A DNA stretch of 64,000 nucleotides, from assembly GCF_002368415.1 (NCBI RefSeq), contig NZ_AP018290.1, positions 1,119,470 to 1,183,469 on the forward strand. Direction: 5' to 3'. The position numbers were made by a program, and so were the translations under genes. Under the pieces are notes generated by a model. That model had not been told where the DNA came from and searched no databases. It saw nothing but the letters and a program-made list of their open reading frames with translations. Below, piece by piece: positions 46,162 through 49,733 of this stretch. Within the stretch, counting starts at the first letter, position 1; each line of letters begins with the position of its first letter. The DNA is from Calothrix sp. NIES-4105 (GTDB lineage Bacteria > Cyanobacteriota > Cyanobacteriia > Cyanobacteriales > Nostocaceae).

Positions 46162-46287
46162 CTACACAGATGCAGAGAATACTATGTGAAATAGTGCAAT
46201 ATCTCTTACATCCTCGACTGTAAACCCTAATGCTGCGATTTGAGGAGCTAGCGAACGCGGCATATTTTCATCAACTAGAAAATTCAA
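46162..46287 (-). pseudogene. Truncated DUF5615 PIN-like toxin
   Basis: From a TTG 3 bases after the DUF433 stop, the frame reads MNFLVDENMPRSLAPQIAAL then GFTVEDVRDIAL. This is the first third of a DUF5615 PIN-like protein, which is normally about 110-120 residues. The sequence then becomes unrelated and stops after 41 codons. The acidic residues D and E of the first PIN motif are present, but the later ones are lost. The partner DUF433 gene is intact. Confidence 0.7.
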
Positions 46288-46290
46288 GCA

Positions 46291-46530
46291 TCAAGCTCCC
46301 AATGGTACCACTTGCGTTTGTTTAACTAAATCGGTTGCATAAGCAAGAGCTGCCTCAACTTGTTCTTTGCGAAGTCCGTATTCTTGCATAACTTCATGCT
46401 TTTCCATACCACCTGCCAAGGAACCTATCACGATAGACACAGGGACTCTAGTTCCTGTAATCACAGGGGTACCATGATGAATCTCTGAGTCAACAGTAAC
46501 GTGTGGGGCTATTTCCATAGGATTCTGCAT
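46291..46530 (-). CDS. DUF433 family antitoxin-like protein
   Basis: 79 residues from ATG 46530; a longer open frame to 46647 would add 39 residues unlike the family. The core is HVTVDSEIHHGTPVITGTRVPVSIVIGSLAGG followed by HEVMQEYGLRKEQVEAALAYA, a small winged-helix-like DNA-binding fold. DUF433 genes usually precede DUF5615 PIN-like toxin genes, as here, but the toxin gene is cut short, so this is an orphaned antitoxin. Confidence 0.85.
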   Translation of the reverse strand: MQNPMEIAPHVTVDSEIHHGTPVITGTRVPVSIVIGSLAGGMEKHEVMQEYGLRKEQVEAALAYATDLVKQTQVVPLGA

Positions 46531-46745
46531 TTTGAGAGCAAGAACTATATTTAGTTTATATTGTACATCATTTTGCGGCATCGAATACAACCGATATAAC
46601 TGAGTGTACAGCTTTACTGTTGCCATGCAGGCAAGCGTATCATGCATTTAACTGTTTCCTTAAACAATGATGAATAATCTAACCACATCTTGTATCAGGG
46701 ATAACATAGGAGTTATAAAGTTCGGAAGTTATTAGGCGGAAAAAC

Positions 46746-47184: not shown

Positions 47185-48267
47185 ATGAGTCAATATAATC
47201 GTAATATTTTTAGTTCAGGTATAATTAAGTTAACTGCATTACTTATATTGTTCGGCGCCACAAGTTGCATACAAAAGCAAAATGCTACTATTTCATCTGT
47301 TTCAACATATATTCAGCAGTTAAATCAAACCAACGATGCCCAAACACGTGTAAATATTATTGATGCTATTGCCAAAGCACCAGAAAAAGTAAATACTGTG
47401 GCGCCAATGCTAGTTAAAATGTTGCAAGATAACAATGCTCAAGTGCGTGCAAGTGCTGCAAAAGCTTTGGGTGAAATATATTTTCGGGGTGATGTAAAGA
47501 GTGTACCAAATTCTACGGTTATTCAAGCTTTAACAGTAGCCTTACAAGATAAAGAAGCACAAGTACGTGCTAATGCTGCAGGCGCCATTGCACTAATTGC
47601 TTTACCTTATAAAAGTGCTGATGCCTCAATTAACACTACTACAGGTGCCTTAGTTACAGCATCACAAGATAAAGATATAAACGTTCGTATAAATGCGTCG
47701 CGTGCATTAGGTATTGTTGGTGCAAATGCTACTTCGGGCGCCACTCCCAACAAATATATAGATACAAAAGCAGTTATATCAAGCTTGTTAAAACTGCTGC
47801 AAGACAAAAACCCTCAAGTTCGTGCGACTGCTGCGGGAGCATTGGTTGAGTTAGCAGGAGGAATAAAAGCAACTGATGGCGCCGTTCCAGAATTAATCAA
47901 AGCATTACAAGACTCAGAACCAGGAACACGCTTCTATGCAGCAAAAGCTTTAGGAAGAATAGGCGCTTTAGCTTGTGTTAGCATACCTGCTTTAACTTAT
48001 ATATTACAAAATAACCAGAAATACGAATTGATAAACACTGCTCATCAGTCAGTAGTCCCCGTGACAGTATTATCTTTAGGCAATATAGCAATGAGTTTGC
48101 AGTCAGCGAGTCATAACCTATCTAAAAGCGAACTAACAGCAGTAATTACAGATTTATCCACGACTATAAAAATTATCGAAGACCCTAAAAACAAATACTC
48201 TCCAGAAATTATCGCTTCTGTACGCAACCCCCTAGAAAACCTCAAAAAAGAACTAAAAAACAGATAA
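47185..48267 (+). CDS. HEAT-repeat lipoprotein
   Basis: 360 residues. A lipoprotein signal ends in FGATSC (cysteine near 29). The rest is a series of about six HEAT repeats of 30-50 residues, with recurring KMLQDNNAQVRASAAKALG, LQDKEAQVRANAAGAIA, LQDKNPQVRATAAGALVEL and LQDSEPGTRFYAAKALG. Related repeats occur in phycobilin lyases, but the lipid anchor argues for an envelope scaffold or binding role instead. The repeats are similar enough at DNA level that five GGCGCC palindromes occur in the gene. Confidence 0.88.
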   Translation: MSQYNRNIFSSGIIKLTALLILFGATSCIQKQNATISSVSTYIQQLNQTNDAQTRVNIIDAIAKAPEKVNTVAPMLVKMLQDNNAQVRASAAKALGEIYFRGDVKSVPNSTVIQALTVALQDKEAQVRANAAGAIALIALPYKSADASINTTTGALVTASQDKDINVRINASRALGIVGANATSGATPNKYIDTKAVISSLLKLLQDKNPQVRATAAGALVELAGGIKATDGAVPELIKALQDSEPGTRFYAAKALGRIGALACVSIPALTYILQNNQKYELINTAHQSVVPVTVLSLGNIAMSLQSASHNLSKSELTAVITDLSTTIKIIEDPKNKYSPEIIASVRNPLENLKKELKNR

Positions 48268-48426
48268 ATATAAAACTTGTAAAGGATGATTAACTTATGT
48301 AAATAAGAATTCATCCTTTACATCCTTTACAAATAAAGTTCACAATTACCATATATTTTGTACTGATAGAATAAACAACAACTCAGCTAGAATACAAATT
48401 AACTAAAAACCAGTTTCAGTGCATTT

Positions 48427-49245
48427 ATGTTCGATAACACTTGTAAATTCCTAGCAGAAAACTTTCCAGATGATTTTGCAACTTGGCTACTAGGAAAACC
48501 AGTAACACTGACTAAATTAAGTCCCAAAGAATTATCCCTCGAACCAATCCGCGCGGATTCTCTCATACTAATGCAGTCAGAAGAGTTAATTCTTCATATT
48601 GAGTTTCAAACCCTACCCGATGAAGAGATACCTTTTCGCATGGCAGACTATCGCTTACGCGGATATCGTCTCTATCCCGATAAACTTATGTATCAAATAG
48701 TAATTTATCTAAAAAAAGTAACAAGCAAAAAAGATTTAAAACTTGTTAAAACAAACAAATTTAAATTAGAAAACACAACTCATCGATTCCAAGTCATCCG
48801 ACTTTGGGAACAGCCAACAGACTTGTTTATGAACAATCCAGGCTTGCTACCCTTCGCGGTTTTAAGCAATACTAGTAATAAAAATAGCACATTACAGGAA
48901 GTAGCAGCCCAGATCAACAACATTAGCAACAGAAGGATACAGGATAATGTTACAGCATCTGCAGCTATTCTTGCTGGGTTAATATTGGATCAAGCAGTTG
49001 TTCAAAATTTACTAAGGAGAGATGTTATGCGCGAGTCAGTTATTTACCAATCTATTCTAGAAGAAGGTAGGGAAGAAGGCAGAGAAGAAGGTAGGGAAGA
49101 AGGCAGAGAAGAAAAAACGCGACAAATCGTTGTCAACTTACTCAAAGAGGGAGCTTCTATTGACTTGGTAGTAAAAGCCACTGGTTTAACAGTAGAACAA
49201 ATCCAACAAATACAGGCATCCCAACAAGAAAATCAGCAAGAGTAA
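48427..49245 (+). CDS. Rpn/PD-(D/E)XK family nuclease with intragenic start site
   Basis: 272 residues. The N-terminal nuclease domain has the family pattern R-A-D (D44) and HIEFQT (E59, Q61), then FRMADYRLRGYRLYP and YQIVIYLK. The helical middle is followed by a C-terminal module (201-272): MRESVIYQSILEEG, four REEG repeats and a helix-turn-helix-like end (VVNLLKEGASIDLVVKATGL, VEQIQQIQ). Rpn proteins of E. coli are DNases that promote recombination and act against phage; they are restrained by small proteins made from an internal start. Here an ideal AAGGAGA site precedes the in-frame M201. No GGCGCC falls in the gene. Confidence 0.87.
   Translation: MFDNTCKFLAENFPDDFATWLLGKPVTLTKLSPKELSLEPIRADSLILMQSEELILHIEFQTLPDEEIPFRMADYRLRGYRLYPDKLMYQIVIYLKKVTSKKDLKLVKTNKFKLENTTHRFQVIRLWEQPTDLFMNNPGLLPFAVLSNTSNKNSTLQEVAAQINNISNRRIQDNVTASAAILAGLILDQAVVQNLLRRDVMRESVIYQSILEEGREEGREEGREEGREEKTRQIVVNLLKEGASIDLVVKATGLTVEQIQQIQASQQENQQE
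49014..49029 (+). promoter_or_regulatory. Internal ribosome binding site and ATG within the Rpn gene
   Basis: AAGGAGA (49014-49020), then 6 bases, then ATG at 49027 in the same frame as the full-length gene. The same sequence with the same spacing precedes the free-standing copies at 49360 and 49671. Confidence 0.65.
49027..49245 (+). CDS. Predicted intragenic small protein (RpnS-like) from the Rpn 3' end
   Basis: 72 residues in frame with the Rpn gene, starting at the ATG preceded by AAGGAGA. It consists of a short helix, an Arg/Glu repeat segment (REEG x4) and a helix-turn-helix-like C-terminus. In E. coli the equivalent internally translated protein blocks the toxic nuclease. The presence of separate downstream copies with the same start signal supports real translation of this internal frame. 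Production and inhibition are inference. Confidence 0.5.
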   Translation: MRESVIYQSILEEGREEGREEGREEGREEKTRQIVVNLLKEGASIDLVVKATGLTVEQIQQIQASQQENQQE

Positions 49246-49253
49246 GTATGTAG

Positions 49254-49312
49254 GGTGCGTGAAAGCTTAAAAAATCATCACCATTATCACAATATAATAG
49301 CTTTCACGCACC
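49254..49312. repeat. Hairpin after the Rpn gene, repeated in each tandem unit
   Basis: GGTGCGTGAAAGCT (49254-49267) and AGCTTTCACGCACC (49299-49312) form a 14-base-pair stem with a 31-base loop. A second copy (about 49575-49632) has lost one G on the left arm. Confidence 0.7.
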
Positions 49313-49359
49313 ATTTGCACCATTTGACTTGAAAAATTTAAGGTCTAAGGAGAGATGTT

Positions 49360-49566
49360 ATGCGCGAGTCAGTTATTTACCAATCTATTCTAGAAGAAGG
49401 TAGAGAAGAAGGCAGAGAAGAAGGTAGAGAAGAAAAAACGCGACAAATCGTTGTCAACTTACTGAAAGAGGGAGCTTCTATTGACTTGGTAGTAAAAGCC
49501 ACTGGTTTAACAGTAGAACAAATCCAACAAATACAAGCATACCAACAAGAAAATCAGCAAGAGTAA
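49360..49566 (+). CDS. Free-standing duplicate of the Rpn C-terminal module
   Basis: 68 residues, almost identical to residues 201-272 of the Rpn protein but with three REEG units rather than four and a Y for S change near the end. It has its own AAGGAGA site at 49347-49353, 7 bases before the ATG. It has no nuclease domain. If the internal protein of the Rpn gene is an antitoxin, this is an extra dedicated copy. Confidence 0.72.
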   Translation: MRESVIYQSILEEGREEGREEGREEKTRQIVVNLLKEGASIDLVVKATGLTVEQIQQIQAYQQENQQE

Positions 49567-49670
49567 GCATGTAGGGTCGTGAAAGCTTAAAAAATCATCA
49601 CTATTATCAAAATATAATAGCTTTCACGCACCATTTGACTTGAAAAATTAAAGGTCTAAGGAGAGATGTT

Positions 49671-49733
49671 ATGCGCGAGTCAGTTATTTACCAATCTATT
49701 CTAGAAGAAGACAGACTTGAAGGCGCCTCCTAA
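49671..49733 (+). pseudogene. Third, truncated copy of the Rpn C-terminal module
   Basis: The same upstream TAAGGAGAGATGTT and ATG, then MRESVIYQSILEE as in copies one and two. After that it diverges (DRLEGAS) and stops after 20 codons, next to a GGCGCC. It marks the right border of the tandem duplication. Confidence 0.72.

Follow-up and report, generated by a model that had tools for sequence, protein, structure and literature searches.

The window analysed here, a stretch of 64,000 nucleotides from Calothrix sp. NIES-4105 (NZ_AP018290.1, positions 1,119,470 to 1,183,469), contains a gene for an Rpn-family nuclease in which a second, internal start would yield the C-terminal tail alone; the gene is followed by a free-standing gene for the same tail and by the remnant of a third copy (Table 1). 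The interpretation towards which we lean is that this arrangement is a recent duplication of a spare tail in a gene-within-gene Rpn toxin-antitoxin unit. Sequence comparison supports it through the family of the protein, the conserved internal start, the derived state of the duplication and the mismatch in repeat number and, at other loci, through selection on free tails and exchange of tail cassettes.

In the proposed model, the full-length protein would be a PD-(D/E)XK-type DNA nuclease with a C-terminal tail composed of a long helix of 4-residue repeats and two short helices. The tail would also be made alone from the internal start and would pair with the tail of the full-length protein, keeping the nuclease inactive. 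The unit of Shine-Dalgarno (SD) site, tail and palindrome would have been copied in tandem, giving one intact small gene and then a remnant. Translation of the free copy is probable; having one repeat unit fewer, its product should pair poorly with the resident nuclease according to the published matching of repeats. The likeliest consequence would be evolutionary: the free copy would be a spare tail, and recombination between the two copies, which are nearly identical and lie about 320-330 bp from each other, could swap the fused tail and its repeat number in one step. We infer expression, inhibition and the non-pairing of the mismatched copy, as we would any role in phage defence.

Table 1. 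Features of the rpn locus in the window (positions are those of the window)
Feature	Position	Strand	Remarks
Rpn-family nuclease gene	48427..49245	+	272 aa; TIGR01784, aligned homologues, structure model
Internal SD site AAGGAGA (49014-49020) and in-frame ATG (49027-49029)	49014..49029	+	sequence, conservation
Predicted internally started RpnS-like protein	49027..49245	+	72 aa; one repeat unit more than free copy
Palindrome GGTGCGTGAAAGCT...AGCTTTCACGCACC	49254..49312	.	dispersed repeat, duplicated along with tail
Second SD copy	49347..49353	+	AAGGAGA; sequence and repeat comparison
Free-standing RpnS-like gene	49360..49566	+	68 aa; ATG 49360; one 4-residue unit fewer
Palindrome spacer, second copy	49578..49637	.	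97% to 49258-49317
Third SD site (49658-49664) and 20-codon tail remnant (ATG 49671, 49671-49733)	49658..49733	+	sequence, repeats

The Locus and Its Nuclease

A preliminary description of this DNA, made from the sequence alone, had listed the SD sites, the ATG codons, the 72-residue tail, the 68-residue gene, the 20-codon remnant and the tandem repeat, all of which are correct to the base. The direct repeats consist of a 185-nt repeat (96% identity, spacing 321) and a 97-nt family present three times, with spacings of 333 and 311. Within the coding part, the first two copies differ by 4 substitutions in 207 bases (three silent, and one replacing Ser with Tyr) and by one 12-nt repeat unit; in the spacer, they differ by 4 substitutions in 104 bases and by 11 gap positions. 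The tail fused to the nuclease thus holds one more REE(G/K) 4-residue unit than the free copy, and the last 46 residues of the two tails are 98% identical. The computed energy of the duplex with the anti-SD sequence, -8.2 kcal/mol, is equal for all three SD copies. Promoter-like sites that might serve the free copy are not in excess between 48300 and 50000 (4, versus 5.3 in shuffles).

The assignment to the Rpn family, also proposed in that description, is borne out by a match of the nuclease to NCBIfam TIGR01784 with 108 bits (cut-off 52.1) over residues 1-262; RpnE of Escherichia coli scores 172 bits with the same model. The protein has no Pfam match above the cut-off, and because PF04754 (YhgA-like), which RpnE matches with 293.5 bits, is not matched, it can be placed in the wider Rpn family only, outside the subfamily of RpnE. 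The Pfam search gave no match of its tail to DUF4351 (PF14261). In an alignment of 33 proteins, D44, E59 and Q61 of the N-terminal domain and M201, the internal start, are invariant; we take the first three, from the pattern D...E-x-Q, to be the candidate catalytic residues of a PD-(D/E)XK nuclease. The structure model of the nuclease has a mean predicted local distance difference test score (pLDDT) of 82.3. When the free copy was compared with RpnA-S of E. coli (PDB 7th0), which is a helical tail protein like that predicted for the window, all 46 residues of RpnA-S aligned at 1.8 A with 26% identity; in a structure search with the full-length model, RpnA-S was absent among the best 50 matches listed, and no PDB sequence matched the window protein below E 0.2. 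The host genome is 12.04 Mb in size, and the gene has its nearest named relatives in Calothrix (80-81%).

Relation to Known Rpn Systems

Zhong et al. (2023; PMC10327210) showed that starts within rpn genes give rise to RpnS proteins, which inhibit the nuclease. The same paper states that RpnS may also be encoded by "a separate gene", rpnE (followed by ypaA) and rpnC each having a second copy behind them, that the ypaA protein is detected in E. coli, and that rpnS can be lost via deletion or fusion, genes for DUF4351 occurring in some species. The claim of the preliminary description that released tail copies had not been described is therefore mistaken. Its proposal that the number of repeats tunes the specificity of binding was not new either, being present in PMC10327210, although the difference in repeat number on which it rested is confirmed. 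The locus is real and its kind is already described; what the present analysis adds is the mismatch, the cassette exchange and the extension to DUF2887. Beyond PMC10327210, no further paper on free Rpn tails turned up among the matches listed, as judged by title and the opening of the abstract.

The closest counterpart is rpnE/ypaA of E. coli, which likewise consists of a nuclease-family gene with an internal AAGGAG..ATG and of a repeat of this site and the tail as a free gene; in K-12, AAAAGGAGAGATTAATG occurs within rpnE and again at the rpnE stop. The two K-12 tails differ by one 4-residue unit (24 vs 28 residues to the anchor), as do those of the window. In contrast, RpnE belongs to PF04754, to which the window protein cannot be assigned, the window has a dispersed palindrome between the copies and a third remnant downstream, and in RefSeq K-12 RpnE is annotated as inactive and ypaA as a pseudogene. 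The free RpnS genes of the DUF4351 type are free tails of Rpn genes as well, but DUF4351 is not matched by the window tail. In the window's own genome, a locus of this type (L004:1486-2572, C1:159167-160253) contains an N-terminally cut Rpn gene, the tail of which is of the DUF4351 type, and behind it a free DUF4351 gene (76 residues) with equal helix length.

Conservation of the Internal Start

Conservation of the internal start was assessed at 110 Rpn loci, comprising that of the window (L001) and the best 109 listed from a search of 192 genomes of the family. Six loci (L020, L046, L052, L079, L084 and L115), in which a stop interrupts the nuclease frame, were excluded, leaving 104 readable loci; these include L092, in which Val replaces the internal Met and which entered misaligned and was scored as a miss. 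The SD core was defined as GGAG, GAGG or AGGA, and the null expectation was obtained by synonymous recoding with pooled codon usage.

An SD core precedes the internal start at 95 of the 104 loci, versus a mean of 13.8 after recoding (maximum 25 of 500 recodings), and at 27 of 31 loci when each 80% nucleotide cluster is represented once (3.7 recoded; maximum 11 of 1000). The mean energy of pairing with the anti-SD sequence is -7.3 kcal/mol, compared with -3.3 kcal/mol for recoded sequences, whereas no such excess is seen at 275 other internal Met codons (-1.1 observed vs -1.7 kcal/mol recoded). The internal Met is mostly preceded by Arg-(Ser/Arg/Lys)-(Asp/Glu)-Ile. Judged by these comparisons of sequences, the internal start is under selection, in agreement with the start predicted in the preliminary description.

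Origin of the Duplication

Two Calothrix genomes, sp. FI2-JRJ7 (L205) and HK-06 (L206), have an rpn gene with a single tail between the two neighbours known from the window, and the sequence after this tail resembles that of the window through the palindrome. The single-tail state of the locus in these two genomes indicates that the unit of site, tail and palindrome was copied in the lineage of the window and hence that the duplication is derived. The earlier proposal that a duplication released the tail as a gene is upheld in this respect; its other part, that the product is an antitoxin dedicated to this nuclease, is doubtful in light of the repeat numbers discussed below. Relative to the conserved neighbours, the rpn block of L205 and L206 is inverted when compared with 47185-49733 of the window, and the HEAT-repeat gene ahead of the window rpn gene is not found between those neighbours.

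The palindrome spacer, used as a query, gave 23 matches in the genome, including both copies in the window. Another tail in the same genome was considered as parent or partner of the free copy and rejected, as a search at E 1e-10 recovered no tail besides the free gene and its parent. The coding parts of the full copies differ by only four substitutions and one 12-nt unit, which is too little to show selection; if a quarter of changes were silent, the probability of at least three silent ones among four, calculated by hand, would be about 0.05.

Mismatch in Repeat Length between Fused and Free Tails

The helix length of fused tails falls into one class modulo 4 in 101 of the 103 tails with an anchor (109 tails, of which 6 lack the anchor). 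Fused and free tails were compared in 21 cyanobacterial pairs from 19 loci, 19 of the pairs being scored by the anchor and 9 coming from one lineage (L178-L186); at some of the loci (L150, L180, L181 and L184) the nuclease domain is broken or was not located. In 16 of the 19 scored pairs the lengths are unequal, always by a multiple of 4, and the three equal pairs compare with 4.0 for random pairing. The two pairs not scored by the anchor were read by alignment (the second copy of L077 is longer by 8, and the helix of L068 is equal). All four pairs with near-identical ends (93-98%; the window, the first copy of L057, L138 and L145) are unequal. Selection for equal length, which was considered, is not seen, nor do the same 19 pairs show selection against it.

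A similar picture was obtained from 19 E. coli rpnE records hand-picked for diversity (K-12 and 18 of 60 listed among 5,371). A free ypaA is present in 14 of these, in seven combinations of length, and none of the 14 equals the fused tail in length; in all five records lacking a free ypaA, rpnE carries a fused end of the ypaA type. Given the non-independence of the strains and the small number of equal pairs that chance would yield, these data point to an absence of coupling rather than to avoidance.

According to PMC10327210, the long protein RpnCL is blocked only by an RpnCS with an equal number of 4-residue repeats. Because the free copy of the window is one unit short, its product is predicted not to inhibit the neighbouring nuclease, provided that the RpnC result holds here.

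At two other loci, L090 (G030) and L144 (G138), the nuclease domains are 92% alike and the helix lengths are 46/42 and 42/42, respectively, which means that the fused tail changed in length and the free tail did not.

Exchange and Persistence of Free Tails

Among the 104 readable loci, an intact free tail lies downstream in 8, including the window, and only a broken one in 3 (L032, L043 and L058), so that the check proposed in the preliminary description, in which related genomes showing the duplicated unit as debris would speak against a functional copy, gave a mixed result. Besides these, a broken second whole gene is found at L041/L066 and an upstream remnant at L060.

The idea that free tails are always copies released from the adjacent gene was dropped on account of five pairs (L071, L093, L128, L131 and L137). 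In these, the free tail shares only 38-49% with its own fused tail but 83-95% with that of the nearest single-tail nuclease relative; the latter tail and the fused tail of the pair are only 35-42% alike. In the case of L071, the relative is L049, another gene of the genome that holds L071. The type of fused tail found in the five pairs occurs with at least 84% identity in 12 loci (217 family genomes searched), all of which carry a second, different tail downstream (close in 11, and about 1 kb off in L184), with the start intact in 10. Recent arrival of a foreign fused tail was rejected as an explanation, given that the silent divergence of the nuclease domain, the fused tail and the free tail is roughly parallel, scattered and often lower in the fused tail.

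Two-tail loci do not form one clade (approximately unbiased test, p 1.7e-5), with at least 6 changes in the presence of a second tail. An ancient pair of tails followed by repeated losses seems the likelier history, although the tree cannot separate gain from loss. L179 and L182, which have two tails, and L074, which has one, are the same locus: they can be aligned over about 350 nt upstream of the gene, over the nuclease domain and over 1.4 kb starting at the free tail. What separates them is a single cassette, made up of tail and spacer and measuring 222 nt from ATG to ATG. In the nuclease tree, L074 groups with L182 (support 92/89). This difference of a single cassette implies that fused and free tails are exchanged.

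For 10 free tails of an old lineage, a ratio of nonsynonymous to synonymous changes (omega) of 1 is rejected, with twice the log-likelihood difference (2dlnL) amounting to 79.8; for three of another group it is 10.6. This test (IQ-TREE) is given as likelihoods and leaves out L187, the 5' end of which is damaged, and L188, in which ATG is changed to ATA. Free tails can thus last and can swap with the fused tail via the shared first codons. At L129, L133, L136, L139 and L141, free tails occur as orphans, with no nuclease domain detected within the 1.4-1.5 kb searched upstream.

DUF2887 Relatives

A second family appears to share this design. A DUF2887 gene in the window's own genome (L012:886-2032, C1:10157957-10159103) has an internal AAGGAG..ATG and is followed by a free tail shorter by one 4-residue repeat and by a further remnant. 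Its protein matches PF11103 with 215 bits and TIGR01784 with 68.6 bits. This protein and its relatives gave 30 loci in 118 genomes searched, the Pfam run being confined to the protein of the own genome. The pattern could read 27 of the 30 loci, missing L295, L298 and L312, the tails of which show the Met; at all 27, an SD core precedes the internal Met (8.0 expected under the null; maximum 15 in 1000 replicates). A short free copy is present at 4 of the 27 loci, that of the own genome included, the differences in length being 4, 4, 20 and 12 residues. At L296, there is a fifth match 0.8 kb downstream, in the following whole tandem gene. As far as sequence features can tell, these DUF2887 relatives have the same design as the window locus, that is, an internal SD site and ATG and, at some loci, a short free copy, in a different Pfam family (PF11103). 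No paper naming DUF2887 was found in the literature searched, and neither the window protein nor the DUF2887 protein of the same genome matched a model of PADLOC-DB 2.0.0 up to E 0.01.

Free Tails as Antitoxins, Debris or Spare Cassettes

The free copy might be a dedicated antitoxin gene that supplies additional inhibitor of the same nuclease independently of translation of the long gene. Its SD site and start context are identical to the internal ones, its end is nearly that of the fused tail (98%), its parent is its only other match in the genome at E 1e-10, purifying selection acts on the free copies of one lineage, and E. coli produces the ypaA protein (PMC10327210). We nevertheless regard this as rather unlikely, since a difference of one unit abolished inhibition in RpnC according to the same paper, lengths match no more often than at random (3/19 vs 4.0; 0/14 in E. 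coli), and all four pairs with ends at least 93% identical (L001, the first copy of L057, L138 and L145) are mismatched. Alternatively, the free copy could be neutral debris, a recent product of slippage or recombination that has no function and will decay as the third copy has. Besides that 20-codon remnant, the remnants or broken copies at L032, L043, L058, L151 and L157 and the similar divergence of spacer and coding part would fit such an origin. Debris seems a doubtful explanation, however, when the start, site and frame of the free copy are intact, 10 intact free tails of the old lineage reject an omega of 1 (2dlnL 79.8), and this layout recurs at the DUF2887 locus of the genome. That the tail protein is mainly a DNA-binding helix-turn-helix autoregulator of the nuclease operon, the free copy being a separate regulator gene, appears very improbable.

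A recent spare-tail duplication is the reading that we prefer for the window, and its wider form can be put forward only tentatively: free RpnS genes would generally be spare tail cassettes of mismatched length rather than backups, recombination with them would switch self-recognition and break the "obligatory co-evolution", and the same would extend to DUF2887. The Discussion of PMC10327210 holds that the DNA shared by a toxin and the antitoxin nested in it forces the two to co-evolve. Mismatched free tails would offer a way out of this constraint, as a swappable store of alternative tails; if so, exchange of the tail would switch the self-recognition of the nuclease in one step, as between L179/L182 and L074 and in E. 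coli rpnE. The spare cassettes could perhaps also act as immunity to former or foreign Rpn proteins. Such spare tails can be likened to the orphan modules that lie behind polymorphic toxins.

Other Features of the Window

On the minus strand of the window, at 46162-46647, a DUF433 gene is followed by a 41-residue DUF5615-like piece (20.8 bits, below the cut-off of 23.8). This arrangement resembles a toxin-antitoxin pair with a shortened toxin.
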